Source of the DNA: Branchiostoma floridae
Taxonomy: Eukaryota; Chordata; Leptocardii; Amphioxiformes; Branchiostomatidae
Direction of reading: 5' to 3'
Length of the DNA stretch: 64,000 bases
Assembly (NCBI RefSeq): GCF_000003815.2
Contig: NC_049989.1
Coordinates: 11,916,422 to 11,980,421 of the forward strand
Both the position numbers and the translations under genes were made by a program. Shown one piece after another: positions 2,739 to 64,000 of the stretch. Within the stretch, counting starts at the first letter, position 1. Every line of letters starts with the position of its first letter. The notes beneath the pieces are model-generated. The model was not told the origin of the DNA. It did not search any database and saw nothing but the letters and a program-made list of their open reading frames with translations.

Positions 2739-3056
2739 TAGCATTTGCACATCTAGCTGTAAGCGTTGTTCAAGGTTTTAGGATGCTCATACAGTACTTT
2801 ATGGAAACGAGTTCCACTGTATCGATAGTTAAGCTATGGGAAAAAAAAGGACGAATCCTGGGTTCATAAAAATATGAGGCTACACTAAACGTGACATTCC
2901 CCCCGAATCTTGTCAATTCATAAATTTAAAAACAATCGTGAAAACAGTACCTCCAGGGATACTCTCTATTTCCTTCGCTATTACCAAGGAGGTTATGTGG
3001 AGACTATGTGTATATCTTGAATTGTTCGCGATGGGCTTTTTCGCGAAATCATGACA

Positions 3057-3436
3057 CCAAGGATATACGTTCTACTGTGCTACAGAATTGTTTCTAATAC
3101 CGTCAACATTGAACAAAGCGAAAACCTCCCTACCCCTTTCATGCCGCAAAAATAAGTCCCCGCGAAACTAAAATCATACACGATATATCAAACGTTAGCA
3201 TCTAACAGAATGATACTGTACCTTATTATTTTCTAACAGAAAAAAACCAAGGATATACGTTCTACTGTGCTACAGAATTGTTTCTAATACCGCCAACATT
3301 GAACAAAGCGAAAACCTCCCTACCCCTTTCATGCCGCAAAAATAAGTCCCCGCGAAACTAAAATCATACACGATATATCAAACGTTAGCATCTAACAGAA
3401 TGATACTGTACCTTATTATTTTCTAACAGAAAAAAA
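3057..3436. repeat. 190-bp tandem duplication
   Basis: Bases 3057-3246 are repeated at 3247-3436 with one substitution that I can see (ACCGTCAAC versus ACCGCCAAC). The near-identity indicates a very recent duplication or an assembly duplication. The unit includes CCGCGAAACTAAAATCATAC, which resembles the CGCGAA-rich MITE family found elsewhere in this window. Confidence 0.85.
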
Positions 3437-4565
3437 CACGCCTTTTTGTGGTAAGAGACGCAAAAAAAGTCGGCCAGGTGTGTATTTGAAAGCCGGATCT
3501 TGGATACAAAAACAGACGAACAAAGATGTCATTTGTTGTGCACAATGGACTGCGACACCTTTGAATTATTAATATCAATATGACAGTATAGGAATCCTCA
3601 TGTGACATTTCGCAGACCTCTCCTATTCCGTACCATAATTCTAGGTCAACTATGCCAACAGTATGGTATCATTATTTTTCAAAAACATATTTTATACATA
3701 GGAATAAACAACTGTAACAAAACATCACCTTGAAGCCGATGAGTTTTCTTGATTTTGTAGACTTAGATAAGGCCTTCGACTCGTCTTGGAGGTCCACTGA
3801 CACAAATTTGAACCGACGTTTGCGTAATGACCAACTGTCACCTTAGCCTTCGTCAAGAAAGGAAATAGGCAAAACCTGGAAATAAAATGTAAATGATGGT
3901 AATTTTTCTACATATAAAAAGAAAGCTTTTCTGTATATCGGTGATTGAAAGCGACATAGTGATAATGACGATGATACTTCCCCGGGGACAGTTTATACCA
4001 AGTGCTTAGCGTAGCAACCACATAGATACGTCACCATTTTCGCAGCAATTCTCCAATAAGATAAATTTGAAGAGAAAACATTCTGTATCAATTTCACAAA
4101 ATCGTTTCATACGAAGTCTATTTTTCTAAGACATCTTTACGCACAAATTGTTGACTGTTCTTACCTTCGACGGCACGCATACAACGTCTGGCGTATATGT
4201 AGGTTACGGTCGTTGCACAATGCTAGCAGCACCTTAAGACATCACGTAACGTCTCATAAACATCTGATAACGAACAATAACTTACGAAATATTTTTGAAG
4301 CATCTTTAGACTGGCATGTTTAAGAGAGAGAGAGAGAGTACTTGGCAGGTAAATATTGTATTCTGTGTCTTACTGTGACGACCTGCGTATTGCGCAGCCC
4401 CCCAGGGAGTTGGAAATTGTCAGGGTGGGGTCGCTCACGCCCTGACGCCGACTCATAGAGGTCACGTAAGGCGGATTGTTGTCATGGCGACGCTAGGTAC
4501 GTGGGAGCGAGACACCAGTGACAATATTGTGTCATACATTTTACTCATTACAGTCTTGCCTTGGC
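3437..4565. other. No gene seen
   Basis: AT-rich sequence with a short GA run at 4325-4338. No exon with coding character or flanking splice sites was found. Confidence 0.5.
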
Positions 4566-26602: not shown

Positions 26603-29600
26603 TCAGTCTTTTTCAACCCTATTTGGAAATGTTGCTACATAGCTGTTGCCCTTGATGTACATGCTCACCACCTTACCAGATATGTTACTCAACTTTACAG
26701 CAGCACATGCTTCTGTCTTTCTACATTTGAAAATGTGGGGAACGGAATACAAAGGATGTGAATTTTCCAAATCCCCTTGGGCAGGACCAACAGGCTGAAA
26801 GCACTGCACAATTGCATAATGACGGGATTCGACTAAGTCACACTGACAGTTTGCTGTAGCACTGCAGCTGCATGTTCGAACAGATGCCTGTAGAAAGTAC
26901 AGCACTTCCCCAAAACAGGTGATACCATTTGACACAAAAGCAATTGTGTATGAATTGTGCCTGACAGCTCTAGTGTATAAGCGAGAGTGTATCATCTCGC
27001 CTTCCTTCATCAGTCTGAAAAAGAAGAAGAAAAATGCCCATTACTTCATCTTAATATATATTATAGAATTCTTATCATTTGGCTCTGAAATATTTGAATT
27101 TTTCCTTAGCATCATTCAGCAATTGCAAATCCCACTACCAACAACAAGCCGAACATCATAAAATTCAGTCATTAGCCTTATCGAGCTAAATTTGTATCCC
27201 TTTTCAAGGTCTGTAAGATAACAACTTGAAGAGAATTGATGCTGACCATCCCTCACCCCCCAACACAAACCATTCTCATGCACATGCACACAAATGTTGT
27301 CCTTTTTCGTGATGATTTTGTTAGTCGTGCCACCGCATTGAGTGCATTTTGCCCATTTCCCATGACAACACGACCTGGATTGTGATAGATTCAGCCCTCC
27401 TCGTGGGAGACAAGAAGCACACACAATTACAATTCTACTGTCAAAAAAAAGCTATATCATAAAATTAGAATTTTTATTTGTTTATCTAAATTGGTTATCA
27501 GCTTCCGAAGAGAGCAAATTCCAAAAGCGTGTCAAGTTAGGGTGCACTGTCTAAGGCAGCTCAAAATCGGAAGTTATATTCACGATAACGTCCTCAGTGT
27601 TTGCCAGTTGTAACGCGGAGGGTGAAGGGTTCATGAACCATATGAATGTATTCCTTATCACAATATGGTCTTTATATGAATGTGTTAAAAATTCATTGAT
27701 CAAAACTTGACCTCATTTTGGCAACTAGTGATGGAACACCGTGAGTTCGAGCGCGTAAAAAAGCGTAACATCTTAGGGCTGCCCCATTATATGTATAAAG
27801 ATGGAATCAATAGAAGGAAGGACACATTTTTCCTTGTTATCATATCAAATACAATATACAACATCAATGTAGTAAGTAGCAGTAAGATGGCTTAATAATA
27901 TAACTGACCTCTGGTACACCATGAATCGTTCTGGCACAAATTCTACATTGGCCAGCACCACATCGACATGACATTTCTTCAAACTGCCATACGTTCCATT
28001 TGCCCTTCGCAACTCCTCCTTTAAGGAGCCGACCATGTAGTAGCCTCTGGCAATTTGTTCGAAATTTGACCTAACAGGAAAAACATGTTCATCATCAGTT
28101 ACTGCTTCTTCACCAAGAAAGAACTCATCATTTTTGTAGAATAATTTCTATAAGAATGTCAACATCATAATACATTGTATGTCACTGTCTGATTTAATAC
28201 ATGTAGGTGGTTTCTCTACCTTTTCTCCTTCCTTTCCTTGCTATGGAGTTTGTACCAAGCAGTCATCTAGAAAAGGCGCCATGCTTTTATCTCATTAGCC
28301 TAAATCTAAATTAAATGAATTTAATGTTTCTGAAGAAATTTGTTTTATATGTCCTCATGTTTGCCATACGGACCATAGTTTGAGACTTATAATGCTGCTA
28401 GCCATAAATGCAAATCAAAAGGTTGTGGTCACACAATAAACATGTTCTTGTTGGAACAGCATATTGTTGTAAAAAATGTCATGACATTTAAAGTTACTTC
28501 ACACCTGTACTTACGCAAAATAATGACTGTCAAGAGGACATACCTTTCCTCCGGTGATTGAACGACACTGTTCAGCTTGTCCCACAGCTTCTTTGCGGGT
28601 GTTCCCGGCTCAAAGCACTGGTCACCCATCTCTGCAAACCTCTGCAGGATTGCAACAGCTCTTAAGACCTTGTAAATGGAACAAAAGAATTGATATTCTT
28701 AGATGATAACCTAAGGCGTATGTTTCATTTGAACACATTAAATACTTCTTGGTATTGTGGTATCAGTATACTCATGCTTGTTTTGCATGTCCTCAAGGGT
28801 AACTTAATTCTTAGATAGGAATACTCCTGGTTCTAGTAATTATAAACTGTAAATCTTCAGTAGAGCATCATAAAATACACACAAAAAAATGAAATGATTG
28901 ACAAAACGATTAAGAATGCGCTTCAACTTGAGTGTTAAAAAAATTAATCAGCTGATGTACATGTATGGAGTGAACCAGCAAGCCAAGGATGACTGACATA
29001 TATATAATGAGATACTCTTTTGTAAGGGCAAGACATTTTTGAGAGATTACATGTAGGGAACATGAAATGTATTGTGCCAGCTTCTAGCATCTATGATATG
29101 ACCCTTGAGTCCAGCCTTGTTAGCTTTGGTCCGTTCCAAGTTGCTGCCCTGCCGTGAGGGTATATTCATTGATTCAAGGATAGGGATTTGTTGTTACTGT
29201 AACAGTGGTTCAAGTACCGCCTACCATCCTTGCCAAGGAGCTCAGAGCTCTTTTGGTGACAGCGGTTGCGTTCTTACTTTGTAATCTGCTGACCCGAGTT
29301 TGATCTCAGTTGTCGGCATGTTTGTTTCTGTATCTGTTCTTACTCGCCCCTCTAATTTCTCCATAACATCAAATGGTTGCACATAAATGTTTCATAAAAC
29401 TAACAGGTGTAAACAACTCAAATGCTGAAACCAACCTGCTCTTCCACTGCCTGCGTACCATGGATCAGTCGCAGCACTTGGCCGTTAACATCTTCGAAGA
29501 AAAAGCAGGAATGGGCCCATAATGGCCCCAGTTCCCTCACTGTGTCCGCATAGTGAAGCAGTGAATGCACATTGAGGGATACTCGAGAGGTTCCTGTAGG

Positions 29601-32600
29601 ATTTAGTACAGACATGTAGTTAGGGAACATTCTAGTGCATACTATTTTTCAATGGTATTCAAATTGTGCATATTTGTAAATTTTAAATTCGAATGAGTTC
29701 AGGACCATACAATCATTACAATGTCATGTACATTTATTTTCCTTTGAGGTGTATAATTAGCCCTTTTGTTTTATCATACTTATTGTAGAAATTCTTTCTT
29801 AGTAAATGTTACCTAAGGTGCAGCAGCATTAAACAAGTAGCATGCTATTACTTCACAATCAATCTTGATTGTCTTTAGGTTCATCATTTTTAAAATTCAT
29901 TCTAAGGAATGGGGACGTACCATACAGCTTTTCAAACCCATTGACAAACTGCTTCAGGTGGTCATCTGCTGACTGCAGCTCTGCTTCAGTTATGGTGTCT
30001 TTGAGAAGGATGTGAAGCCCAGTGACCAGCAGGGTGTAGTTTTCATAGTAGTCGGGTGGCAGGAAATGCTGCATGATGGGGAGGCTGTAGAATAATAACC
30101 AGGCCCTGTACTCCGATGCTAAAAACAGATACAGAACACCTTAATTAACAAGTGGAGATGATGTAAAAATTACTTTTTCATTAATCAAAGTGGATGGGTC
30201 ATGATTTATGGTTGGATGGATGGATGGATGGATGGTTTGCAAACCACATGCATATATTACCACATGTACATGAAAAATGCCCTATATTTGAAAAAAAATA
30301 ATAATTCAATGTGTACATTTTCCCTCTGTGTGAATTTTTTTAACGTACTCAATTCTTTTACTTATGTTGACAATTGAAAATATTGAGATAGATCAAAATT
30401 TACTTGCAAAGCTCAAGAATAGGGGACTGGGTTCGCAAAAACTTGAAGTGTTCATGGGCAAACCAGCATTAGTTATTGGAGGTTCTTCTTCTATGCATTA
30501 TAAATCCAGCTGGTACCAGTCTCATAGCACAATTTTATTCCAGTCATTTGCTGCATAAACCACCTCTGGTTTGCCTTCAAGGTGTCTCTGTTACCTTACT
30601 GTCATTTGCCAAGTACCTGCATATACTAAGTAGACTATAGTTAACTGGTTAAAGTGCACATACATTTGCATTTTTGTTCCCCGCTAAGTGTGTTGGTCTT
30701 TCCATACCCTCTTAATTTTTGTTGATTAGTTGAGTTCAATCACTGGGCAACCTGGCTACAAAAAGTTATTTGAACCCTGTAATAGGCTTAACACCTACCT
30801 GTGAGAAATGTGGTTCAGCAAAGAAACATTTGTAGATCTAATATTGACTCCATTATATAACTTTGAAAAGAATTTGAAGTAAGTGTGAAGAGGCACCCAC
30901 CTTTCCAGTGCTGCATGTGGTCTTGTATTGCTCTCGGAGTTCGGTGAATATCAAGAGGTGGCCTCATCGCTAGCATCATCTCATCAATTTCCTGCAAATG
31001 GTGCCCACAGTAGTACCTTTGTGTTTTGGCAGACTTGAACCAAAGGCTCATGAGAGCCTTTGTTATTCCCAGAAGGCTACCGTGCATGTAATCGATCGTC
31101 ATCCCACTTATGAGATTGAACCTTGGAGCAAGGTTCAGCCAGGACGGTCCCTTGATTCCATACACCTGATTGGACAGATACCATGATAGTGTACATGAGG
31201 GATATCATATTTGCAATGTACATGCACACACAGTAGTACAAAAGAATTTCAAGTCATTTGGACCTATATACCGGTATTCACGATTTTAACACCTGGCTCC
31301 AAGCAAGAAAATTTCAAGATAGATTTCTTTCTACTACCAAAGGAAAAGTCTCTGTTTCCTACCATTTATGTACCATTATCTTCATGTCTTGTCTTCATGT
31401 CAACTTAACAGATCCAATGCATAGAGTGTGAGTCACATGTCCCAATGGGTTTTACAGCTTTTTAGATAATCATCCAGCTCTATAGCTTATACATGTTAAG
31501 AATAAGACTTTTAATGCCTCAGTAGTTAGCGGTCCTGCATAGTCATAACTGTTATGCCTTATGTATAGCCACATGCATAACTACATGTATAAGTATCACA
31601 CCATATCGCAATGCATTTCTCATCAAATAGATAAGGAAAAGGGCACTTTTTAGGCCTGGGCATTGAGCCATAGCAGACAGTGTTGTTAAAATACCCATAG
31701 ACTTGCAGTACAACACAAGTGTACCTTACTATCTTTGTAATCTAATTCCCCTTAAATAGTGTTAAATCTGTGATACAACAAAAATTGATGGGTTATGCTC
31801 GGCTCTTAAAAAAATCTATATCCAGTTTAAACTTCTGCTTTTTGGTAAGACCAAAGTGAAAATTGTGTAGAATTGTTTTCCATTATGGTATTTTGAAAAC
31901 TGAAATTGATTAATGCATTTGCATTTGGGACCATAGGAAAATATACTGACAAAAACCATCACAAGTATCCTAACAAAATTCAGAATTTTGACAGTCCTGC
32001 TTTGATTTTATCTATAGAATCTAGTACTGTAAATGCATTTAAGTTCGCAGAGCGGAAAATAGACTTTTTGCGGTTGTTTTAATTTCGCTGTAGCACAATG
32101 CACCGCAATCTCTTACTGTTATGGAAAAATGTTTGCGGTGGTTTTAAATTCGCTGTAAAGCGGCCGCCGCAAAAACCGCAAAAACATTACTCCACCGCGA
32201 ACATTTCTGCATTTACAGTTACTGTTTCTCTAAGATGCCAAGACAATGCCATACCGTAGTCTGTTGTATGTGTGCCTCCCTGGCATGGGCAAGGGTTTCT
32301 TCATGTGTTCTCAGGGGGTCTTGTGCACCTTCAGCACCACATGGATACTGGTGCCGACGATCATTATGTGTGCCTTTCTGTAGACATTTTGGACAGCCAT
32401 AATATCCATTGTGTGCCACCATGTCCATCACAAGAGCCTTCGCCTGCAGATCGCATGAACAGGCCAAGAGAAATGCCTTGCACTCAAAGGGAGTCGTGTC
32501 AGGTGGTCTCACTTGAAATCCTAAATGAAACAAAATGAAGGTTCTGCATGTTAAGAATTGTTATTGTTTAACTCGACATGATCCTATTTCAGTATCATTT

Positions 32601-35600
32601 AGAGTGTATACTTCTGACATGGTACATAATGTATGGCTTGTGCTTTGCCTGGTTGTTCTTGTGCTTTGGTCTCGGCAATAGACAAACATCTGGCGCATGT
32701 AGGGTGGGAGTTTACTGTTCAGAGCTTTGTAGAAGAGTATATGGCGTTATAGTATTGATGTGTTGCCTTAATGTCCTTCCAGCCCAGCCTAGAGTGTACT
32801 TCAGTTGATGGTGTCCTGTGTGGGGCCTTCAGGATTAGTTTTCCCGCCCGATTTTGCATGGTTTGTAGCTTCTGTAGGTCCTGATCTGGAGCAGTGTCCC
32901 ATGCCGTGCAGGCATATGTTATGTGTGGTAGAAAAATGGCGTTGTACAAGGTGTGGAATGCTGATGTTGTGATGAAGGGGCTGACGTGTTTCATCATAGA
33001 TAGTGATTGCTCCCAGATTTTTTCCAACCTATCAACGATTAACCCCGAAACTGTACACAAATCTCTGCTCAATCCCAAGCAAAATGACTATTACTAGCTA
33101 GGATGTAGCCGAATCACCCAAAAACTTCACACAACCGTCATCGAGCCAAAATAAAAACAAACAAACCATAAATGCGATTTGGAGTTATCTGTGATCCAAA
33201 TGTTTACAAAATGAGGAAAGGATAATTTTGATTAGAAATGAAAATGACCACTTTTTTGAAAATTGCTATTAATGTCCATTTCAGATAGCAATCAGGACAC
33301 TTTCACTTTATTTATTTTACCAGGAAATGACTCAGGTCAGAGTAGACCTGCTTTACAGGCAACCCTGGGCACATAAGACACAACACAATAACAATAAAAA
33401 CATATTACAGTAAGAGCATTTGAAATAACAGTCTGGAGTAAGACCCCGTTCACACTCAGAAAAACGATTCAAATAAAACTTTTATTCGAATAAAATTTGT
33501 TCTATCCGATCCAAAATTGTCTCCACTGGTTGAGGACTCCATGCTCTGCCATTTCTTTGGATGTAATACATTGTAATAATAATCTTCATAAATGTCCCTG
33601 TTTTTATGGACCTTCCCGAGCTTAAAGATAGACGTGGTCGAAACTACTTAAGGGTCGGCTAGTGTTCGGGGGCCAAATACAGCTATGTGTAAGCTAGGCT
33701 TTGAGTTAAAAACAACATGTCCACACCCTCACACTCAGGGTTGACAATTGCGGCAAAGCCTAATGATATCACCCCTAGGCCCTGACAACTCAGCCACAGA
33801 ATTCGGTTATTAGGGGTGCCTTGCTTATAATATTAATGAGCTTGCCTGATTTGTCGCAGGCCAATCAGCGACCGGATTGCAAGTTTCGAGCAAACAGCGT
33901 ACGCATGGTACGGCACGGCGTGCACAAAGATCTGTTTATCTTTGCGTGACGGTAATGTTTTTTTTTTTTCATATGCTAGGTCGGTATACGTTGATGCAGT
34001 GGTTACCTATACCCACAGAACTGACAACTGTTAAATTTGGTACCTAACTAAAGACGGCTGGACGCTGAAAGTACTGTGAAACGTTATGCCGGTACTGTTA
34101 TCTTGCTCTTGAATATTAATGAGTCGCCTTATATGGCGCCTTTCCGAGCTTTCGACAACAAAAAGCCATCTCTCCGATGGGCTGACAGTTGGTTAGAAGC
34201 CACGCCCATAATAACCGAATTCTGTGGCTGAGTTGTCAGGGGTGATATCGTTAGGCTTTGCCGCGATTGTTGTCAACCCAGAGTGTGAGGGTGCATGTCC
34301 GGTGCCCAAGGCGTGAACCTAATGTCCTTCAAAGTTTTAAAATCAGGACTGATCTCTTCAGCATTTTCAGGGGTTCACAATTTTCTCACTTGGCAGACTA
34401 CCGAGATTTCATGAAATTTCCATCATGGAAAAAATACACAAGGGATCCAGCTTGATATTTTCGGGGGCACACCCCCTTGACCCCTTACCACCCCCACCCC
34501 CTGTGCCACCAACATTGCATATAGTCAATGACAATCAGTAAGCCTACTTTTGCAAAGTATAATTGAAAACAAATTCAGTTACTTACCATCTGCAAGAGCC
34601 TTGATGCTTTTTGCCAGAGGAGGGAGGAAGATCCTCATCTTTGGTTTATATTCACCAAACCAAAGGCCAGCAAATACCATGTTCTCACGGCGTGTTCTGC
34701 AACATTCAACAAGGGAATGATTATAATACGTAAGTTGTCTTTTCCAAACTTTATTTCTGAAAAAGAAGGTTTTATATTAACTAAAAAAAATTTAAGAAAA
34801 TATATATAAAAGGCCCCGTTCATGACGCAAAAAATGAAATGGTCCCATTGATTTGGCAAGCTGAAATGGATTATCATAAATTTGTCATCATGAACACTTT
34901 GTTTTGATATAAAGCGGATAATTTCCGAACCTCCACACAAGATGGATCTAAAACATTTTTTCGTTTTTAGTCATAAAATTCATTTTTATTATCGGGCCGC
35001 CTCCTGGTTGACTTAAGGGAACCAACAGTCCTGATATAGGAGGGGGGATGTGTCAGGAGATCCAGAGGAAACTTACAGCATGTTGGGAACTAAATGCCTT
35101 TCCAAGGACATGAAAAAATGCAGCTATAGCAATTAAGACATTGGCTCAGTTGCAATCAAAGACCAATAATATTATGCAGTCACAAGATCGTGCAGAATCA
35201 CAACAATCTCAGAGGGTCAGAGGTCACATGACTATGCATTGTCATGCCAAGGAACTTAAACAAGGAACTGCCATCAGATTTGCAGGCCAAACGGATAGAA
35301 CAGTTTTTTTGCATCATGAATGCATGGGGCCTTGTCATTTGCACTACCAAAACTGTACGTACATGTATGCATGACATTATTCATAGGGACTTATATGTAG
35401 GTGAAGGCTTTCATGGCTCAAGTACTATTACCCTGTCATACTGGTACCTTTTCAGTCTACCTTTTTATACTACGAGACACTGTTGGTGCTTAATTTCTTA
35501 CATGCTGAAACATGCAAGGTTTGGTTTAATTGTTAACAATCAGTGCGTATGTTGAGTGCCGGAAAACTATTGAAATGTATTTCTGTTAATTTTACCAAAA

Positions 35601-36646
35601 AGTTCAAACGATGTGCACTTACCGCATTCTAAAAGGCAGTTCATTGATTGCCAGATATACTGGCCACAGGCCGTAGTTCGATGAACGGAAGACTTTTATC
35701 CCATCCGTGTTCATCAGGAAAGAAATGTTATGCTTGTCCTGGAGTTGTTGATTACTGGTGTAGATGGAACCATCTGTGATGTCTTCAATGGCTGATTGAT
35801 TCTTCTTCTTTCGCTGCCTCTGTTTGATGATCTCTTGGTAGAAGCCTTTCCCTACAAAAACAATTAAAAAAATTGGGCAAATTGCAAAATTGAACAAAAA
35901 TACCTACATGTAAAAATACCTAAAGCGAATTTGCACTGTGTTGTACTGTAGAAGTGTTTCACCAGTTATAGACTTCTAATCATAGGCTTAATGTTGTATT
36001 TCTACGCTTATCATTTGAAAGAAATGAAGAGTTCATAATTGGGCTACTGTATAAGACTTAAATCAGTTATCAAGGAGCTGCTAGGGTTTAAACAAGTTAA
36101 TGTATTAATGGACTTACTTTGAAACATTGCTTGGAGTTGCGACAAAATGCTCATCTCCAGGAAGTAAAATGTGGACTTTGGTGATTGTAGGTTGCTATTA
36201 CACCTGTTGCAGACTGCGTCTTCCTCGGATACACTGGTCAAGCAGGCTGAACAAAAGTAATGTCTTTGGACAGGAAATGTCAAGTTTTTCAGACTGAAAA
36301 ACTTGTCGAAAAGGTACTTGGAAGTACAGAACAGGCTTTGGTACTGGGTATGTAATCCAATCAATTCAAGGAGGTCTACCGTTGTACTTGAACTGAGGTG
36401 GTGAGATAGGATGAACGCCATAACCAGCAGCATACTTTCTCCATAGCTCAGCTGACATCCAGGATAGAGTGGCAACTGTTCTAGCCTGTCCACTAATGTT
36501 GGGGCCTTGCTGTCCTCAGATCGAAACCAGGAAATTGCCTCTGTGCAGGTTTCACGATTTTCCTCTAACTCGTCCCAGTCTTCACCACATTCATCTGAGA
36601 AATCATTCCGCTCCAAATCATCCAAATTACTTTCCAGGACCTCCAT
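26603..36646 (-). CDS. tnp2-type (CACTA/EnSpm-like) transposase, 10 exons, intact
   Basis: Exons from the 5' end: 36646-36118, 35851-35623, 34696-34587, 32520-32255, 31165-30901, 30118-29921, 29593-29436, 28668-28544, 28070-27909 and 27014-26603. Every junction has AG/GT borders and matching phase, giving 817 codons plus stop with no break. An in-frame TAA lies just before the ATG. An acidic head and a zinc ribbon (CSAC...CNRC, about residues 134-150) precede a catalytic region with NTDG (D about 226), a C..C..G block in exon 4, DYMHGSLLG (D about 403), NVHSLLHY and FFFED (E about 566). NTDG, D.MH and the FE element are the core of the tnp2 transposase family. The C-terminal exon is cysteine-rich (CSCSATANCQC) and its function is unknown. 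It could be the transposase of a large mobile element or a domesticated gene. Introns hold a LINE fragment, two DNA elements and a MITE. Confidence 0.85.
27115..27795 (-). mobile_element. ATAACGGGGGCCGCCC-family relic in transposase intron 9
   Basis: On the minus strand it reads CASCLPRGGLNLSQSRSC, then KCTQCGGTTNKIITKKDN, a cysteine-paired zinc-finger-like segment shared with the copy at 48150. It ends ATCTTAGGGCTGCCCCATTAT, a decayed form of the family's terminal repeat. It is inserted in the intron between the last two exons of the tnp2-type gene. Confidence 0.65.
32026..32219. mobile_element. ACTGTAAATGCA-family MITE in transposase intron 4
   Basis: Perfect 12-bp ends (ACTGTAAATGCA and TGCATTTACAGT) enclose GCGGTTGTTTTAATTTCGC and GCGGTGGTTTTAAATTCGC in one orientation and CCACCGCGAACATTT in the other. 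It is the best-preserved copy in the window. It lies only 36 bases past the exon 4 donor. Confidence 0.8.
32719..33078 (-). pseudogene. LINE reverse-transcriptase fragment in transposase intron 3
   Basis: The frame reads FHTLYNAIFLPHITYACTAW, then LQKLQTMQNRAGKLIL and RTPSTEVHSRLGWKDI. This is the thumb region typical of CR1-like LINEs. It is about 120 codons, with no reverse-transcriptase active site, and ends at a stop, so it is a dead fragment. It lies in the same orientation as the host gene. Confidence 0.8.
33724..34293. mobile_element. hAT-like element with long inverted ends, transposase intron 3
   Basis: The ends CACCCTCACACTC and GAGTGTGAGGGTG start inverted repeats of about 90 bases that run through TTGACAA, CGGCAAAGCCTAA, GATATCACCCCT and ACAGAATTCGGTTATTA. 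Flanks are CATGTCCA (33716-33723) and CATGTCCG (34294-34301), an 8-bp target duplication with one change. The left arm has a short insertion (AGGCCC) relative to the right. The 570-base element has no open frame. Confidence 0.82.
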
Positions 36647-37480
36647 GATGTTGAGTTACAAGTAGACATTTCACTGAGGTCACTACTTCTGAATCCTCAG
36701 GACAAATGGGCTCAGTACTGAGATCTGTGCATGTGCTCATGAAATCTATCCCACTAGATTAGACATGGTTGTCCCCTTTGACATATTACTCACATTCACC
36801 AGGCATGACTCACTGGCCTTCGTCCTGCAGGAGCTGGAGATTGGTTGGTTTTACATCATGCAAATACACATGTGGCCCACATTAGCTTCAACAAAAAAGC
36901 GGGAAATTTGTGTGTGTATTTGCTGCAACAGTGCAGACCTGCCATTTTGAAGTCTCTGGGAGATCACACTTTTCTCGTTTTTTTTTTTGGAGTTCCACTT
37001 CAACTATGTCAACTAGACTTCATTACAAGGGTAAGTTTTTGTTCTTTTACTTGTCTTGAAAGTTGAGATGCTTGATTTCAGTGTACCATGTACCATGTGT
37101 GTCCAACATTTAGATTTAGAAACATGGGCTCTGATCTCTTTTAATTACTGTTCTTGAGTCTGTTCAAGTGGTTTCAAGCCCTATGTTCCAAAATCCCTAT
37201 GTTCCGAAATCCCTCATAATGTTCTGACAAACTATATCAAATCATGTACATGCATTGGATGGCGTTTACAAGTTGTGATATATAGCCACTACGATGATAC
37301 ATAATACCGCCAGAAGGAAACAAAGCACAATCAACTGTCGCTATGTACCTTCATACAAAAACCTGCATGAGCATACAGAAAGTCAAGAGAAAACGGACGT
37401 ATACTGTCAAAAACTTTCATTTAACTTTGGTCCGTCACAACCACTAAATAAATCTTTACGGCTAGTGTAGTGATAAAAAA
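36647..37480. promoter_or_regulatory. Shared upstream region of the transposase and BEN genes
   Basis: The two genes start back to back across about 830 bases, so this stretch should hold both promoters. No clear TATA box or known factor site was picked out. A GTTCCAAAATCCCTAT / GTTCCGAAATCCCTCA direct repeat lies at about 37187 and 37202. Confidence 0.35.
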
Positions 37481-40400
37481 ATGGCGGGCAAATGGTGGCG
37501 TACGTTCAATTTTGTCCGTAACAACCGTAGGCCTGGGCTATGTAAAGGTTCCTCACACTTTTACACCAGCTGTACAAAATGTAGGTCACCAACCTAAATT
37601 CAAGATTGCTGTTGAATCATACTCGTCTTGTGCCGTGAGCACATGTACATGTGATTATTGTCTACAAATATGGTGATGAATGTAACCGCTATTGAAGCCT
37701 TTTTAAAAATGTGCTGAACACGTGGATGTCTGAAGTGTGCATACCGCGGAAATTTCAGCTGCACTATTAAATCTCCTTAAATTCATCGATAATTTATTTG
37801 GCGGTATTATGATTAGTGGCGGTATTATGGTAATTGATGATAGTTTGTGGGCCAAAAATATTACACAGTGCTTACCTTTACTTTCAAATCTAACAAACAC
37901 GTCTTTTTGCATGTAGTTAAACTGATGTGTACTGTTTATTTAATCACCAGATCCAAAATGGTTGTATCTCCTCTTTAAGACAAGAGAGGATGGCAAGCCA
38001 AAAGGCTTGGTATGCGATGCCAAGAGAGTGGTTGTCCCAAAAGGGAAGACCAGGAGAGAGGTTGCCAAAGTTGGCAACCGGGTCACAGTAGTTGACAAGG
38101 ATGGGGAGCATGAGGGAACTGTGCTCTTCAGCACTACAGGTTTGTGCTTACAAATTGTAGTATGCATTTACATTTTTATTCATTGCTATTTATTGTAATG
38201 TCCGTAATTATATAATGATGCACATAGCTCTGAATGTAGCATCAACTACAAAGAAACCTACCTGTACCTCATTTACAATTGCCTGATTAGAAACAGATTG
38301 AGATAAGCCGATGACGTCAACACCTGAGTGCAATTGTTCATAAATAAGTATACAGAACTCCTTTGGCAACTGATGTAATCATACATTTAAATGTTTTTAT
38401 TAAAATTATTAAAAAGGCCATGCTATATGTATTAGTGTTTGATGGGGTGGGGTGGGGGCTCCATCATTAAGTCATCTCAGTTCATTTTCTTTTTCATTTA
38501 AACTTATTTTATTCGTGTATTACAGCCCTGTACATGTCTAAGAAACCTGAACCATGTAGACATAAAGTTTGACTAAAAAGCTGAACATAAAACTGAGCTC
38601 GAGCTTCTTTTGTTTGCCAAATATATATTTTCAGCAGTTTCATCACATTAATATTTTGGGATGGATGGGATGAATATTTTTCAAGGCTGGATAGAAAGGT
38701 TTGTATCAACTGTTAATAAAGTTTTTTTATTTTTCAGGGGATCACTCCGAGGCATCTTCCTTTGGTCTAAGTCTTGACAAGAAACTTGATCATGATGGCA
38801 AGGACAAAGCTAAGGGGGTAAGTCTCATACCAGGCCACATTCCTAAATAGTGAATGGCTTTAAATCATGTATATGAAAATTGTATGATGTTATTTTGTTT
38901 CTGATGTTTTTCATTAAGAGAAAGAATGTAGATAAAAGTTTGCATTGTGCCCTGACTGCTTAATCATACAAGCATGTATTGCTTTCCTGGCATGTAGGTG
39001 TTCTTGACTGAAAAACACCTGTTGAGTACAGTCAGTTGTCCATGTGTAATGGCTCTCAGATCAATCTAGTGGGGGATTGGGATTTTGGGAATACTGTACA
39101 TTGTATGTGCGGATGAAAAAATGCTGTTTCCACCTTGGAAGTGGTCAGGTGGCCTTGTCCATGAGTTGAACTGACCCGTCACAAAAATTTAAGAAGGCAA
39201 AAACAGTAGTGTAAATTGAATGTTACATTCTCCTACTATACCACTTTACAGAAAGCTGCAGAGAGAACTCAAAGTAAAAAAGGAGCAAAACGGACGTCAA
39301 CTAAGGCCAATGATGAGGTATGTAGTCATATATTTGTCCTTGTCATATCTGACAACATTGATGACACTGGTACATTTTGTCCATCAGTCTGTCCATGAAT
39401 ATTGAAAGATCACTAATCAGTTTCTTCCAACTTTAATGGGTACAAGTGATTTGTTTTTAATGCTTGCATTACAGACTGGTCAAGCTAGGTTGATAAATTG
39501 ACTAATAGATTTTTTTTCTTGCTTCAGGCCACCAAAAAGACCAAAGACCAAAGTACAAAGAAGAAGAAGAAGGTACTACTATGTGGTCATGCAAATTGAA
39601 CAAAGTGGCATGATTACTATTGTAGCTTAAGTAAGCCTAGGTCAATTTTTTTGGGATGCCACGGCTAAACATGGGGAAGGACAGGCAAAAGGATGGAGTA
39701 CATGTATATAATTGCGTGGTACTTGCAAGGTTGGGCTATGTGTAGGTATGTGCATGCCAATTTGCCTGACAGGAGTTGCTTGCAACATTTGTTGTGCAAG
39801 TCGTGAGTTTATGTGCTTACAACGTACAATCTCCGTGCGATTGCCATGTTACCGTATGCAGGCCGAACTTGCACGTGGTGCTTACATATGGTTTCCTTAC
39901 TCACTCTCAATGGCATCTAATGAGAGTACGCGTGTTGTCTGTACTGGTTCTTACGGGGTGTGAATCCACAACCAGAAAGCAGAGAGAGTTCAGCATGTAC
40001 TTAGGAAATGCTACAGTGTGTCTGCGTGCTCCCCAATCCATTGGATTTCGTAGAATTTCTTACGGAGATGGCACTTACCACTTATAGATCCCAAACTATG
40101 CGAACGTTTTTGCTTGAAGACAGACAGCATGAAACTTGCATGTACGGTGGGTTGTGACAAGTAACCTGCTTTAGCAAACTTTTTCTTCTACAATGGACCT
40201 ATAGACTTCAAGTTGATGCTTGACTAATGGGCCTACGTCACATTTCCAACGCAGGCCGGGCAGCTTTCGGGAACGAAAAGTATGATATAAAAGACAACAA
40301 ACTACACAAGACGTCGTCAACATAAGATTCGTGGGCATAATTTATGTATATTTCTAGACATATCTTTAAATTTTCCGTTCCTTAAAGCATTCCGGCCGGG

Positions 40401-43043
40401 CCCCGGTTTGGAAATGTGACCTAAGCCTTACCGGTTTAAAAGTAACGACTAGTTTTTTGAGTCAGTAAATGTTATTTGATATTCATATCAAGTTCTGGTA
40501 AGCAACAAAGTTCCTTTTTCGCAATCAATCAACCATAGACTGGGGCCTTGGGACACAATGTCATAGTTACAAATAAAGAATAGAAAACTACATGCAATCA
40601 TAGCTGTATAATGATCAAACTTGTTAACCACGTACAGGCACCGACACCTCACGACATTGCCCTTGCCAAGCATAGACAAGCTGCCATGAATGGTTCTGCC
40701 GATGAGCTGTTGCAGTTGATGGTAAGTTCTCTTAACACGCATGTACGGTGCATGTAGACAAGGGACACAGCAAAAAGGAAAATCAATACACACCAAACAT
40801 CAAATTGAGAATTTACACAATTCTACCTTATTTTGTACCTTAGGTACTATCAGTAAATGTATTGTGTTTTATAATGTTTGTCCATCTAAAATGACAAAAA
40901 CTATTGCTCAAATAAGATGAAACTGAAAGACTGACCATATGTGGTTAGCATGAAAATGACCACAGTGATGATATCTTTAGACATTCATTCTACCACAATT
41001 CTACAATATTGACTCCATTTGTTTGTTACCAATCTACAGAATGTTGCTGGAGAAGAGCCCACAGAGCAGGAGAATGGAGAGCCCACAGAGCAGGAGAATG
41101 GAGAGCCCACAGAGCAGGAGAATGGGGAGCCCACAGAGCAGGAGAATGGGGAGCCCACAGAGCAGGAGAATGGAGAGCCCACGGAGCAGGAGAATGGAGA
41201 GCCCACGGAGCAGGAGAATGGAGAGCCCACGGAGCAGGAGAATGGAGAGCCCACGGAGCAGGAGAATGGAGAGCCCACGGAGCAGGAGAATGGAGAGCCC
41301 ACGGAGCAGGAGAATGGAGAGCCCACGGAGCAGGAGAATGGGGAACCCACGGTGCAGGAGAATGGAGAGCCCACGGAGCAGGAGAATGGAGAGCCCACAG
41401 GCCTGGGTCTTGTACAGCCCATGGAGCAGGAGAATGGAGAGCCCACAGGCCTGGGTCTTGTACAGCCCATAGAGCAGGAGAATGGAGAGGCCACGGAGCA
41501 GGAGAATGGAGAGCCCACGGAGCAGGAGAATGGGGAGCCCACGGAACAGGAGAATGGAGAGGCCACGGAGCAGGAGAATGGAGAGCCCACAGGCCCGGGT
41601 CGTGTACAGCCCACAGGCCCGGGTCGTGTACAGCCCACAGGCCCGGGTCGTGTACAGCCCACAGGCCCGGGTCGTGTACAGCCCACAGGCCCGGGACGTG
41701 TACAGCCCACAGGCCCGGGTCGTGTACAGCACACAGGCCCGGGTCGTGTACAGCCCACAGGCCCGGGTCGTGTACAGCCCACAGGCCCAGGTCGTGTACA
41801 GCACACAGGCCCGGGTCGTGTACAGCACACAGTTTGGGGTCCTGTACAGCCCACGTGGTATGGAGAAGAACAGTTGCCCCCACGTCAACCTGGTCTTGAT
41901 TATTCCCCCATCTCAACTGATCCTTCCTTCAACACTACTCCCGTCCATCGCCCTTTGCAGTTCTCTTCACCAGCCACATCCACCCCTCAGTTTAACAGCA
42001 GTCTCCGATCACCCCTTCACCAAATCAACAATCTGACGACTAATGCAGAAACCACCAGGCGTTTCAAGTACCCACTGCAGACCCCTCTGGTAATTAAAAT
42101 TTTCACCTTGAAAATCTTGTGTTCTAAAATAATGTACTTTCTACTTTCTTTCTGATTACACTAAGATAAGACCACAGAAAGAAACACTTGAATGGATAAC
42201 ATCCGCTGCGACTGCAAATAAATGAGATAGGCCAAAAAAAAACAATGTGCATTATGAGACCTGGTATTACATCAAAACTGCTTCTTGTGATGTTAGAAAA
42301 TGAATGTACAAACCAAGTACATAATTTTTATGTAGAAGTTTCATTTCTTTTTTCAGAACACAGTGCAGTCACCCGTCCCACTGGGGTCAGGGAACTATGG
42401 AGTTGTCATTTTTCCCAGTCAGTTGCTCAATGCAGAACTGACTGGGAGAAATAGTCCTAAGGCCTACATGAAGAAGTTGATGGATTTTTATTTCACGAGG
42501 GAGGTGCTGGCTGTGTCTAATTATAAAGGAGGAGGATCCAACGGATATGCAGCTTTAGACCAGGACATCATGGGAGCCATTGTTTGTGAGTAGTATCTGA
42601 TAATTCAAAGAAGGCAATGCTATAACTTCAATGAAACACACTCAGATAACACACAAATGTTTATGTAAAATTACAAGTTTATTGTCCAATGTCATGTTGA
42701 ATTTTTCACTCTCCTTTTGGGTTGTATATGTACTTTGCATGTGATAACAATGTTAACGGCATACAAATAAATGCTGCTTTTCAAGGTATATATTTTTTTT
42801 CTTTCACATTGAGCATTGTCCAATACATCTGTAGTTTCTTATCAGTAAAATATTAGTTTATCAGCACCAAATTAAAACGTAATGCTAACAAGTCCTTTTT
42901 TTTCAGCCGCAACCCTCACCAAGTACCCGAACTGCACGGAAATGAGTATCAGCAGTGAAGTAGGCAACAAATGTGTTAAGGCGAGAAAATATTTCAAAAA
43001 TAAAAGGGATGGGCCTAGGTGCTTCATGGATAGCTCATTGTAA
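37481..43043 (+). CDS. BEN-domain protein with long coding minisatellites
   Basis: Exons are 37951-38139, 38738-38817, 39252-39317, 39528-39572, 40638-40721, 41040-42089, 42357-42585 and 42907-43043, all with AG/GT borders and matching phase. The first coding exon is less sure: ATG at 37481 with a T|GTAGGT donor at 37580 gives the needed phase 1 and would make 659 residues. The N-terminal part (KWLYLLFKTRED) is followed by a lysine-rich, probably nuclear tract (ATKKTKDQ, KKKKK). Then come about 20 EPTEQENG units and 10 GPGRVQPT units. The C-terminal 100 residues match a BEN domain: YMKKLMDFYFTREVLAVSN, LDQDIMGAIV, TKYP and NKCVKARKYFKNK. BEN domains bind DNA or chromatin proteins and also occur in viral and transposon-linked proteins. 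The gene is divergent from the tnp2-type gene. Confidence 0.8.
39705..40165. mobile_element. Diverged family B element in BEN-gene intron
   Basis: GTGTGTCTGCGTGCTCCCC, ATTGGATTTCGTAGAATTTC and TTACGGAGATGGCACTTACC match the interior of the element at 4765-5088 in the same orientation. The ends are decayed (TTGCAAGGTTGGGC on the left, GGGTTGTGACAAG on the right). Family A follows within about 70 bases. Confidence 0.55.
40232..40429. mobile_element. Family A palindromic MITE, second copy
   Basis: It opens with CCTACGTCACATTTCCAAC, keeps GGCCGGGCAGCTTTCGGGA, and ends with CCGGCCGGGCCCCGGTTTGG and AAATGTGACCTAAG. This is the same unit as at 4566-4760 at about the same length. It lies in the intron before exon 40638-40721 of the BEN gene. 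Confidence 0.75.
41050..41845 (+). repeat. Two fused 24-bp coding minisatellites
   Basis: GAGCCCACGGAGCAGGAGAA plus TGGA repeats about 20 times, then CCCACAGGCCCGGGTCGTGT plus ACAG about 10 times. Two hybrid units (GGCCTGGGTCTTGTACAG) sit between blocks of the first type. Both units are 24 bases, so the reading frame is kept whatever the copy number, and no stop appears in five of six frames. Confidence 0.95.
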
Positions 43044-43832
43044 AGCAGAATTTGGTACAATGTATTTCCTACCTTTAGCCTAGTACTAGATTTTTAGCAA
43101 TGTTTGTGGTTACAGTAGGTTCTAAAAACTAAAAGTCTATAAGTGTTTTGATGTCACCCCATATGTTATGATACAGTTTTAACGTGATTATGCCATGATT
43201 TTTTTTCTTTTTTGGCCTGCTCTGGTGTTTCTTGTGTTTATCATAGGCATATATTGTAATTTAACAGGAAGTCATTCAATGCTGTGTCAACTTTCAACTT
43301 AAAGCTGATGTGTAAAACAAGAAAGTATGCTACAATAATATGAATTGTAGGTAAAATTGCAGGCCAACAACTGCTCTGTGTATATAGACAACAGATAGAA
43401 TTGTGTAACACTGATTTTGTTGACTTTTGTCATGTCAAAAGTGGTGGGCTGGAATATATACTGCCCCTTATCTGTTAGCTTCTACAGCAAGCATGTACCG
43501 GTATGATGCAGGCCAAAAAAGTAGGAACTGATTCAGAAATTATCCAGAGAAGTCATGACCTTTTTGTGAACTCCTTTTTTTTTTATCAATATCAGATGTG
43601 ACTCAGCTCTGAGAAAGTTAAGCTTGCAGCCTGGGTTACAGTGCCCTGTGTAATATACCGTGAAATAGGGGTTAAACCTGACAGAGCTGCCTGCACTCAA
43701 CTTACTTAATTTACACTTACAGAGGAATTTCTTTGGATGTTTCCTCATTGTGACTTTGAGACCCTGGGAAATGAACAGACAAGTGAAAATCAGTGCACTT
43801 TGCTGGTTGGCAGAATGCCCTTAACAAACTAT
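43044..43832. other. BEN-gene 3' flank
   Basis: AT-rich sequence that should contain the 3' UTR. No gene and no clear AATAAA was found. Confidence 0.35.
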
Positions 43833-45005
43833 CAGGCCTGGAATGGCACTGTCAGTGACTGTCAGACAGCACTGTTTTGCCTCTGATCAGGGCCTGTCAG
43901 TGCACTGTATCAGCCACTAATTATTCACAAAATATGCAAATTTTCAGTCGTAGAAACAGTCGTTAAATCATGACTGACAGTCATAGATTCCCAGTGGCTG
44001 ACAGTCGTAGAACAGTCGTAAAACAGTCGTTGAATCATGACTGACAGTCGTGGATTCCCAGAGGCTGACAGACGTAAAACAGTCGCTGACAGTCGTAGAT
44101 CTGCTCTTACATAACAAAACACTTCTGCTCATGTACTAGATTTTGGAGGTAAAAATTATACAAAAACTGAACAATAGAAAGATTTTGGCTAACTAGATTC
44201 TATCTACATAGAGTACAGAAATTTATGCAACTGCAAAATGCTTCAAAAAGTAACTGAAGCAGAAAGACCATTATAGACAAGAATGGGGCATCGTCAATTC
44301 TCTGTCATTGATTTGACAAGTTTAAAATGCTTATAATATGAAGTTCTGAAACCACAACCAAATAAGTCTCTTAAAGAACAAGACAACAACTGACGGTACA
44401 CAAATGTACATGATTGTTAATTCTGTACCTATTTGTTTAAGGCACCCAGTCTATAGCACAGTCTGCCATGCCCCCCTCCCAACAATTGTCAAAATTCAAA
44501 ATGTGGCCATTTGTCACTAATATCTTACCTCAGAAACATGATGTACACTTCCCCCCACATCCACAGTACTTCCAAACAATAGTTATGGCAATCAATCTCC
44601 TTTCCAAGCTGCAAAGTCTGAGAGATGAAGGCCTGGATACAGAGTAAATATCCCTGCTGTCCTTCTCTAGCTGAGCTCAAAACCTAACTGTCTCAATTCA
44701 AACTTCCCTGGGCCTGCAGCCAATTAAAAGAGCTGGCATCTGATTCGCTAAATGCCTAATTAATACAAGATTTTGATTTGCCATGGCTGACAGTGGTGGG
44801 ACTGTCATCAACAGTCGTATTTCAGGCCTGTCAAGACAGTCCTAAGCGCTTTCAGGCCTGTCAAGACAGTCCCAGATCAGTGCAGAGCCCGATTTGTACT
44901 TGCCAGACGTATTGCAGGCCTGTCAGTGGAGGTCTTCTGCTGATTTGCGTCTGAAATGCCTCTGTCAGTGCCTATCCAGCCACTGACAGTGGCATTCCAG
45001 GACTG
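43833..45005. mobile_element. 1.17-kb inverted-repeat transposon with subterminal ACAGTCGT motifs
   Basis: The 25-base ends are inverted copies with two mismatches (CAGGCCTGGAATGGCACTGT on the left, CAGTCCTGGAATGCCACTGT read from the right). Just inside both ends CTGACAGTCGT, AACAGTCGT and AGGCCTGTCA occur many times in both orientations. Such arrays are typical transposase-binding subterminal repeats of hAT and related elements. No long open frame is present, and no target duplication was confirmed. Confidence 0.75.
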
Positions 45006-45455
45006 ATGGTTTGCTACGGGTGAGCTTGTAAAGCAGGTTATGTAATTATTTTATTAAGAGAGGGGACTCTGCACTAACTATAGTTGGCATACAATTATTA
45101 ACTACTTATAATTAGCAGGAAATTGTCTGAAGAATTCCATCCTTATTTCATACAGGTCCCTTCAGTCTATATGAAAACCAAAAGGTCTGCATACTTACTC
45201 AATCACATTATTATTCTAATTTGGGAGAGAAATGTGTAAGTTGGGCCTTAAAAACAGGGCCTAATTTGTCATGCAAGGGGGTGGGATGAATTTAAGGGGA
45301 ATGCCATTTCTGAGGGTTGAATTATCAGCATTATTCTAAGGTTCTACCACCCTACTTTAATAGTGACCTTAAATTGAGTCATTCCTTTTTCAACACATAA
45401 CTTGACTGGAAAAATAATATTATCCAGTTGGTAAATCATACTAGGACATAAGATT

Positions 45456-45671
45456 ATTCTTTTATACAACCAGTTTTTCTTACTTGCTGACGTTTAGATG
45501 TCTGTCAGACTTCTTCATCAGAGCTTCTAACTAGATACTGCTTCCTACATCGGCTACATATAGCGACAAGAAGCAGAACTCCAGTTCGAAGCTCTGTCTG
45601 AGGAAGATGTCTGACAGACAATATTAGAAAGGTCAGCAGGTGAGAAAAACTGGTTGTGTAAATTAAAGAAT
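45456..45671. repeat. Inverted repeat
   Basis: ATTCTTTTATACAACCAGTT running to GATGTCTGTCAGACTTCTTC pairs with GAAGATGTCTGACAGAC through AAAAACTGGTTGTGTAAATT, with several mismatches and a centre of about 70 bases. Its origin is unknown. Confidence 0.55.
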
Positions 45672-46734
45672 ACTCTGATGTCACATAACTTCCTTGCATG
45701 CCAGCATTCATGTTTCCATATATAATGTACCATGAACTGGGGGTGTGTGACTGTTATCTGAACTCCCCATCTGGACATGCTTCATGAACTACTCAGGGGG
45801 CCTGCTGTACAGAACTTCCTTGGGGCATGTTGGTCCTAGATCTAGAGCCCAGGGAGTTGGGCTGGAGTTTGGCTGTATCGGCTCTAGAAACAGTCTGAGC
45901 ATCTAATAACTGCCGACAGGGGTAAAGTTGAGTAGAGTTACTTTCAAAGTTTCATGCTATACAATCTAATACAATTTACACTATTTGAAGTATCCTTATA
46001 ATCAGGTGACTTTGAATGTATAAAGTCAATTTTTACAGCATCATATTGTGACTTAAATACTGACTACATTTAGATTGCAGACAATGCAATACATGCACGT
46101 ACATCATGGCAAACGCAGGCAGCTTAATAGCTGTGATATAGAGATTATAAAGTGCCAACACATTCATGTACATACATTTTACACTACTCATTGAATACAA
46201 TCATACTTCAAATGAAACTGTTACAACAATATTTAATGAGTAGAACATAAGTTAAACTTGATAGGTTTGGAATATTACAGATAACAGAACATAAATGTAC
46301 AGGTAACAGATGCGATGCTACAGTATAGATTGGTGACTGAGTGGTTTAACTGGAGAACCGTTTTGTGGAGGAAATGTAGGATTCAAGGGCAGCAAGTACA
46401 TGTACTTGTAACTTTACTTGTACCATTGTCACATCCTAGTAGCCCCTGTTATATTACTTATGAAACAAACTTAGATGATCTGGAGTGACTAAATTAAAAC
46501 TATAGAATTTCATGCCTACATTAAAATCATAACCCCCTTCTGTTGTTGGATGTCCATCGCTCTGCTTTCCCTTCAACCATCCTTATAAATAGGTCACCGT
46601 CACAATACTGAAGAGACGGAAAGAGTAAAGGCCACACCACTTTTAACTTTGTTTTTAGAATAATTCACATCTAAGTCTGAACTCTTAGTGTTATGGTTAA
46701 AGATAGTTAAATAGAGACGTATTTGAAGGCTTTC
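45672..46734. other. No gene seen
   Basis: AT-rich sequence, probably including the 3' UTR of the minus-strand gene that ends at 46735. Confidence 0.35.
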
Positions 46735-47844
46735 CTAGTCAAATTCAAGTCTCCTAATGGGGCTTAGGTCAGCAACATCGATCACAGGTACATTTTTCTC
46801 CCTCAGTTTGTCCATAAGGTCATCAACTGTCTCACCCAGCATCAAGCCTTTACTTAGTGCCAATTTGTCAATTATGATGCATGTTGTTGTGTTGTCAAAG
46901 AATGTCTGTACTTGACCATGCAATACGCGAACTTTTCTTTGGAGGTTTCTCATTCTCAAAGTACTCATGCCATAGTCTGGTATATAGCATTTTTGACCCT
47001 CCAAAGTTGTTGTAGTGTTTCTTGTGCTGGGTATTCCCGCTGACCTCACTGATTCAGGGCTGTCGGCAAATGGGGGTAAATAGCTGTGAGGACTGCTTTC
47101 CATGTTTGCTGAAGATCCACATGATGCTGCACTCGTTGACTTTCTGTCTTCTACACAATGATTGTCATGGTTCTGAGATTGCTCCATCATGATGCTTCCT
47201 TCTGCAACTGTGTTCTCTGTTTCTTCCACATGTGGATCTTGAGGAACAGCAGAATGTGCAGCAAACTCCATCCACTGTATGCCACAGTAGAAGTACTTTT
47301 GTTTCCCTCCAACTCTAATTCTCTTGTGCCTGACATCTGGAAAAGCGTCCTTGATGGAATGACCTAGTTCTGGGTCACTAGTGTAACCAAAAGCTTGATG
47401 AAGCTGTTGTTTTATTTCAGCACATTCAATCCGAGTACCATTTGCAAGTTGAAGGTGTTCTTTCAACCTGGTATTTTGAGAGAAACATGAAGTTTTTTTA
47501 ATAAATGTTTCAAATATTTCAGGGCAACTGTATTTATGCAGGTCCATCTCTATTTCAAGACTGATTCCAGGGCTTAGAACCTCAGTAAATTTGAGACACA
47601 TGAATTAGTTTCGTACATCATAATATATTTGTAGACAGAATATTAAGCATCTGTGTTGCATTATAAGAATCATGACTATCATATTTATATATAACATCTG
47701 ATTCAGTACATTTTGATTCCTTGGGCTCATCAACCAAAATAGAGTTACATAAACAACTTACCACTCAACACGACACTGTCTGAAGTCAGATTCTAAACAA
47801 ACTCTTGCGTGTTGGCAGCTTTCAGAGCATGAATCCATTTCCAT
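46735..47844 (-). CDS. Small protein with RFX-like winged helix
   Basis: The main exon is one long open frame to a stop at 46735. A likely first exon, 47844-47762, starts MEMDSCSESCQ and ends in phase 2 at TG|GTAAGT. The phase-matching acceptor is CTAAG at 47573, so exon 2 would be 47572-46735 and the protein 306 residues. The open frame's own ATG at 47601 has an in-frame TAA just before it and would give 288 residues. Residues about 95-128 (LGHSIKDAFPDV, KRIRVGGKQKYFYCGI) resemble the core of the RFX winged helix, whose usual form includes FP, RRLG.RG and SKYHYYGI. The middle is serine/threonine-rich and the C-terminal 70 residues (LQRKVRVLHGQVQ, MLGETVDDLMDKL) look helical. It probably binds DNA. 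I do not recognise the full-length protein. Confidence 0.6.
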
Positions 47845-56172: not shown

Positions 56173-59495
<3,323 letters not shown>

Positions 59496-63025: not shown

Positions 63026-63125
63026 NNNNNNNNNNNNNNNNNNNNNNNNNNNNNNNNNNNNNNNNNNNNNNNNNNNNNNNNNNNNNNNNNNNNNNNNNNN
63101 NNNNNNNNNNNNNNNNNNNNNNNNN
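63026..63125. other. Assembly gap of 100 N
   Basis: Exactly 100 N, a conventional placeholder length. The true distance and even the join are unknown. Confidence 1.

Positions 63126-64000
<875 letters not shown>

Follow-up and report, generated by a model that had tools for sequence, protein, structure and literature searches.

The 64,000-nucleotide stretch of the Branchiostoma floridae genome analysed here (C11:11916422-11980421, hereafter the window) contains three neighbouring genes, which encode a tnp2-type transposase, a BEN-type protein and an RFX-like protein. A sequence-only reading had regarded these genes as the possible cargo of a single large mobile unit of at least 21 kb. Gene models were obtained by stop-to-stop translation and splice-site reading and were compared with the genome of the same animal (513 Mb in 431 contigs), the only animal genome used. 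The gene models and their domain matches confirm that the three genes are neighbours, and no host gene was recognised between them among the frames scanned, which were part of all frames. The transposase and BEN-type genes constitute a recurrent two-gene unit of CACTA ancestry.

The three genes of the cluster

The transposase gene is of the tnp2 type (CACTA/EnSpm) and is located on the minus strand at 26603..36646. It comprises ten exons (36118-36646, 35623-35851, 34587-34696, 32255-32520, 30901-31165, 29921-30118, 29436-29593, 28544-28668, 27909-28070, and 26603-27014), which encode 817 amino acids in an open spliced frame, and its nine introns all exhibit GT-AG borders. The protein matches Pfam Transposase_21 (40.3 bits for a cut-off of 28.6, E 2.6e-10) and Pfam DUF1258 (E 1.7e-12, above the curated cut-off). 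As seven of the ten exons give no tnp2 match when scanned one by one, the assignment requires the spliced model. In an alignment with three intact transposases encoded elsewhere in the genome, the putative catalytic D, D, and E are kept, as is a CPKC knuckle; we take the aligned D, D, and E positions to be the catalytic residues. Intron 3 holds an insertion of about 570 bp with long inverted ends, which resembles a miniature inverted-repeat transposable element (33724..34293, inverted repeats I7, I12, and I19).

The BEN-type gene lies on the plus strand at 37481..43043 and comprises nine exons (37481-37499, 37951-38139, 38738-38817, 39252-39317, 39528-39572, 40638-40721, 41040-42089, 42357-42585, and 42907-43043), which encode about 632 amino acids. 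In this model, the exon-8 donor (GTGAGT at 42586) was reset manually and we inferred the 19-nt first exon. The transposase and BEN-type genes had been described as back to back, correctly: in gene coordinates, their start codons face away from each other across 834 bp (36647..37480), a gap that could be a bidirectional promoter. The protein falls below the cut-off of the Pfam BEN profile (16.3 bits for a cut-off of 23.2, E 0.011), and its paralogue on contig C7 is above it (32.7 bits, E 8.8e-8). By sequence, the BEN-type domain of the window protein matches the chromatin factors BANP (E 3.2e-4, with the BEN domain in the PDB), BEND6 (E 0.034), and NACC1 (E 0.082). In contrast to these three, it is paired with a transposase gene and its linker holds a coding minisatellite. 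This minisatellite, identified with Tandem Repeats Finder in exon 7 (41054..41854, plus strand), consists of 24-bp units in an open frame. Two unit types, PTEQENGE and PTGPGRVQ, are present in frame, and the repeat is open in several frames.

The RFX-like gene is a single open reading frame (ORF) on the minus strand (46735..47601) and encodes a protein of 288 amino acids with RFX-like and BRCT-like parts; the outer coordinate given earlier for the cluster, 47844, is 243 bp beyond this ORF. The protein shares with the RFX winged-helix factors a partial match to PF02257 (RFX_DNA_binding). Unlike these factors, it matches only half the profile (positions 41-76 of 79), at the cut-off (27.4 bits for 27), and this part is fused to a BRCT-like region. 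The match of the latter, which would correspond to the BRCT-like motif N of the DBF4 family, to Pfam BRCT is below the cut-off (E 0.013), and a structure model from the single sequence, with a predicted local distance difference test score (pLDDT) of 40, is too poor to judge it.

Recurrence of the tnp2-BEN pair

The spliced tnp2 protein gave 55 genome matches (55 of 124 candidates being scored, a scope that also holds for the statements on closest copies). Besides the window, three places match most of the transposase exons: C7:19255642-19288332 (plus strand, 8/10 exons), C6:816304-833624 (minus strand, 7/10), and C5:5658886-5680850 (minus strand, 7/10). The BEN protein, from which the 350-residue minisatellite exon was omitted, gave 28 genome matches. 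A BEN exon is found upstream of, and opposite to, the transposase gene at each of these three places, namely at C7:19234258 (minus strand), C6:849452 (plus strand, 41% identity, one internal stop), and C5:5695165 (plus strand, 41% identity). The pairs span C7:19234258-19288332, C5:5658886-5695392, and C6:816304-849679, and, with the window on C11 included, head-to-head BEN exons are present at four of the four closest multi-exon tnp2 genes. On C7, exon 2 is matched at 41% identity (E 5e-5, with that exon as the query), exon 8 at 58-62% (E 1.6e-24 and 2.4e-26), and exon 9 at 39-47% (E 1.6e-5 and 1.6e-4), the E-values of exons 8 and 9 being calculated against the fetched loci only. The intron between these two exons is apparently at the same place in C7 and in the window.

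Merging the genome matches gave 54 tnp2, 17 BEN, and 13 RFX/DBF loci; the BEN position C7:19246361, which came from the exon search, was put into the neighbour counts by hand. With the window included, 9 of the 17 BEN loci have a tnp2 locus at a distance of no more than 20 kb. Outside the fragment-dense stretch C6:19.5-28.1 Mb, this is the case for 4/5 loci, compared with a chance of about 0.003 each, and inside it for 5/12, compared with 1.1 expected. Fragments of each gene type, in part interrupted by stops, are dense in this stretch of C6, which is possibly a transposon graveyard. Co-occurrence is not confined to the window: each of the three closest multi-exon tnp2 paralogues has BEN exon matches in head-to-head orientation, and RFX/DBF4-like genes adjoin tnp2 at six other loci.

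The rates of nonsynonymous (dN) and synonymous (dS) divergence were counted pairwise by a simple procedure, and the synonymous sites are saturated. Between the window and C7, the transposase exhibits a dN of 0.26 and a dS of about 2.5, which is saturated, over 483 codons (4/10 exons). BEN exons 8 and 9 exhibit a dN of 0.31 and 0.57, respectively, with dS beyond measure for both. For tnp2, the dN together with the saturated dS suggests that the exons compared have long been constrained, which would fit both vertically kept host genes and survivors of long-active element families.

DBF4-like genes and CACTA ends in related elements

The RFX-like protein of the window gave 12 genome matches, itself included. 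Six relatives lie 3.2-5.0 kb from tnp2, all convergent with the transposase (C17, C235, C9:0.89 Mb, C9:16.2 Mb, C323, and C15:2.97 Mb). Their long aligned pieces (C235/C17 and C323/C9, 98.4-99.96% identical) make it probable that C235 is a haplotig of C17 and C323 one of C9, so that four of the six loci would be independent. The encoded proteins exhibit a DBF4-like layout, with an RFX-homologous N-terminus, a BRCT-like stretch, the DBF4 motif M, and a DBF zinc finger. In extracted-locus coordinates, the genes are at L021:2959-4092 (C17), L025:7725-8906 and L028:6850-7998 (both C9), and in L031 (C15). When four of the tnp2-linked proteins were scanned singly, the zinc finger was matched with E from 9.7e-14 to 8.7e-16, and the zf-DBF genome search detected it at all six tnp2-linked loci. 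The nine matches of that search comprise these six, two halves situated 1.7 kb apart at C10:10.43 Mb, which are probably the host DBF4, and one orphan on C15.

The C17 protein matches human DBF4 (4f99_B) over motif M and the finger with E 5.5e-9, and a four-sequence profile does so with E 5.6e-16. From the profile search, 15 of 18 rows were set aside as chance, i.e., 14 bacterial protective-antigen chains and one antiterminator (E 0.025-0.12). The match of the tnp2-linked proteins to Pfam Dfp1_Him1_M is below the cut-off (E 0.026-0.043). PF02257 gave no match at E up to 1 in the three tnp2-linked relatives that include the N-terminus, and an NCBIfam scan of three proteins returned no family. 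The tnp2-linked relatives share motif M and the DBF zinc finger with DBF4, the regulatory subunit of the CDC7 kinase. Unlike DBF4, they possess an RFX-homologous N-terminus and adjoin a transposase, and the window copy is devoid of motif M and zinc finger. With the window included, 7 of the 13 RFX/DBF loci lie within 20 kb of tnp2. At C16:6.23 Mb (L040:2009-3544), a 512-residue ORF without Pfam match adjoins a 48-50% identical RFX-like relative with stops. The presence of a DBF4-like gene beside tnp2 in CACTA elements is the larger novelty of this analysis; no description of such a gene within CACTA elements was found in the open-access literature searched. Among the viral contigs searched, 1 and 19 pattern matches were obtained, none of which was confirmed.

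The RFX-like protein of the window aligns with the tnp2-linked DBF4-like proteins over the RFX-like and BRCT-like parts, at 24-27% identity, and stops short of motif M. With the C17 protein as the query, the RFX-like gene is matched by tblastn within the window (E 5.3e-13) and is also recovered genome-wide (E 1.6e-7). Neither motif M nor the DBF zinc finger was found in the window by a protein profile scan, by tblastn, or in a short-motif list over 20-56 kb, and further exons of the RFX-like gene bearing them were rejected on the last two grounds. The earlier description of an RFX-like DNA-binding helper is too simple: by these alignments, the protein is related to the DBF4-like protein linked to CACTA elements and is shortened.

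The related elements are CACTA transposons. The similarity of the copies at C9:16.2 Mb and C15:2.97 Mb ends at TCTAGTG (reverse: CACTAGACG). The 20-base CACTA terminus of this DBF4-type family is present at 37 places (30 exact and 7 with one mismatch, compared with 0 for the reversed control), which are spread over 18 of the contigs C1-C19. Over 600 codons, the C323 and C15 transposase genes exhibit a dN of 0.012 and a dS of 0.018. As these genes differ so little, the family moved fairly recently. No element end was found at the C17 and C9:0.89 Mb loci. Separate tnp2 elements on C5, C13, and C19 (C5:21353424, C13:1223407, and C19:6373362) begin with CACTGCACCAAATCGG (also given as CACTGCACC) at three sites with different flanks. 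These CACTG-starting elements are very similar, measure about 10 kb or more, the right edge not being reached, and were apparently active rather recently; no DBF4-like or BEN match was found in the DNA read.

The cluster as a possible mobile unit, and alternatives

At the window itself, the common terminal inverted repeats and target duplications expected of a mobile unit were looked for and none was found. The best CACTR pairs, 45072/49394, 12964/44991, and 25361/49394, were rejected as ends, since they do not properly enclose the genes or are no better than chance. Also rejected were the inverted repeats that span the flanks, as they look like interspersed repeats (25 of 116 pairs listed in one scan).

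Copies of interspersed repeats, present in either orientation, lie within the gene cluster and around it, at 24.2-25.1, 27.3-27.7, 48.3-49.4, and 51.3-51.5 kb. The nearest recognised host genes are represented by EF-Tu-like exons (12.4-13.7 kb) and by Rubicon-homology exons (56.2-59.6 kb) with a sub-threshold C1 match. A near-identical repeat (57082-57546 and 63593-64000, 6.5 kb apart) overlaps a Rubicon-homology exon near the assembly gap 63026-63125 and is possibly a tandem or assembly duplication. Tandem repeats are also present at 3056-3437 (190-bp unit, 2 copies, 99% matches) and 8172-8696 (116-bp unit, 4.5 copies, 97%).

On balance, we consider it probable that tnp2 and BEN form the core, with two genes, of an old CACTA-type (tnp2/EnSpm) lineage rich in introns and that the RFX-like gene belongs to the same element. 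In favour are the recurrent neighbourhoods of tnp2 with BEN and with RFX/DBF4-like genes, the CACTA terminus of the C9/C15 family, the CACTG starts of other tnp2 elements, the kept triad, and the dN and dS of tnp2. Several observations weigh against this reading. No CACTR pair around the window genes exceeds the shuffled control, and a 2-3 bp target duplication is present at none of the five best CACTR candidate pairs; in the C9/C15 family, one end only was read. The dispersed copies of the unit, i.e., the divergent pairs on C7, C6, and C5, include none that is near-identical, and no such second copy was found among the candidates scored. The C7 tnp2 exons are only 48-75% identical to those of the window, and the best tnp2 fragment is 86% identical over 35 residues (C6), the best BEN exon relative 83% over 69 residues (C6), and the RFX relatives 67% over 64 residues (C6) and 67-70% over 27 residues. 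The BEN partners on C5 and C6 consist of one exon match each, that on C6 with a stop. The genome search gave no BEN match at the more distant multi-exon tnp2 genes (C148:242-245 kb and C19:147.6-149.4 kb), which may reflect divergence or absence. Moreover, for 8 of the 17 BEN loci and 6 of the 13 RFX/DBF loci (C16, four on C6, and the C15 orphan), the distance to the nearest tnp2 locus exceeds 20 kb.

Among the merged genome matches, there is no second locus with all three genes within 20 kb. The nearest case consists of fragments over 57 kb at C6:21.58-21.64 Mb (BEN at 21578977, RFX at 21614835, and tnp2 at 21635516), which is weak evidence, since this stretch is dense in tnp2 fragments. The proposal of one large mobile unit is consequently partly supported: the recurrent tnp2-BEN pair stands, with the RFX-like gene as a probable third member, and the ends, a close three-gene counterpart, and a near-identical copy are missing.

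The position of the RFX-like gene speaks for a partly overlapping explanation, which we regard as possible rather than probable: tnp2 and BEN would form one unit, and the RFX-like gene would be an independent relic of a DBF4-type CACTA element that landed 10 kb away. Neither the genome searches nor the 3 kb read past the C7 BEN end revealed RFX near the C7, C5, and C6 pairs. In addition, its order and orientation differ from those of the six DBF4-type loci, which are convergent with tnp2, since the window gene lies beyond BEN on the tnp2 strand. However, the probability that a random point falls within 20 kb of a tnp2 locus is about 0.004, yet the window RFX-like gene does so, and nothing else left by a DBF4-type element, neither motif M nor zinc finger, was seen in the window.

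It is unlikely, in our view, that tnp2 and BEN are a domesticated host pair, captured long ago from CACTA, with the C11, C7, C6, and C5 pairs as host paralogues acting in chromatin or transcription. Stops are largely absent from the tnp2 exons matched in the four pairs (the exceptions being on C6 and at exon edges) despite the saturated synonymous sites between the window and C7, and that no terminal repeats and no near-identical copies were found at the window also fits domestication. On the other hand, the many tnp2 and BEN fragments on C6:19.5-28.1 Mb, some with stops, are as expected for a mobile family, and the catalytic residues of tnp2 are kept, which domestication does not require. That three unrelated host genes lie side by side is very improbable: host genes flank the cluster and no element ends were found, but the recurrence of BEN and of RFX/DBF4-like genes with tnp2 largely refutes it.

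With tnp2 and BEN as the core of an old CACTA-type element, the window copy is probably immobile today: although its genes are open, neither recognisable ends nor a close sister copy were found. It would be either a domesticated cluster or an old insertion that selection has kept. Cut-and-paste catalysis would fall to the tnp2 protein, and binding of the element ends to the BEN protein, which would be divergently transcribed from the same upstream region. In maize En/Spm, TNPA binds the element ends and TNPD, the tnp2 protein, is catalytic; the role of BEN may be likened to that of TNPA. The RFX-like/BRCT-like gene would be a shortened derivative of the other type of helper that accompanies tnp2 in this genome, and is probably a third helper, decayed or repurposed, derived from the CACTA-linked DBF4-like gene.

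The window shares with CACTA/En-Spm elements a tnp2 protein in which the triad aligns, a second gene whose domain is of a DNA-binding type, and transposase introns, and CACTR ends are present in related elements of this genome. In contrast to these elements, the window tnp2 has ten exons, its partner is BEN-type and divergent, and no ends were found at this copy. For comparison, plant CACTA transposases have one to six exons (PMC4158355).

A further proposal, which we advance tentatively and consider rather doubtful, is that CACTA elements of this genome carry their own DBF4-like subunit, which would be tethered to DNA by its RFX-like domain and would recruit or activate the host CDC7 at the element ends. 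Excision would be timed to S phase, and transposition from replicated into not yet replicated DNA would raise the copy number. In the derived set of three genes in the window, the part that binds CDC7 would have disappeared and BEN would have taken over end recognition. It is an open question how cut-and-paste transposons couple their movement to DNA replication, and a transposon family encoding a DBF4 relative would, if true, link transposition directly to the activator of an S-phase kinase. The recurrent tnp2-BEN pair, for its part, suggests that transposon helper genes are one possible source of the BEN-domain chromatin proteins of animals.

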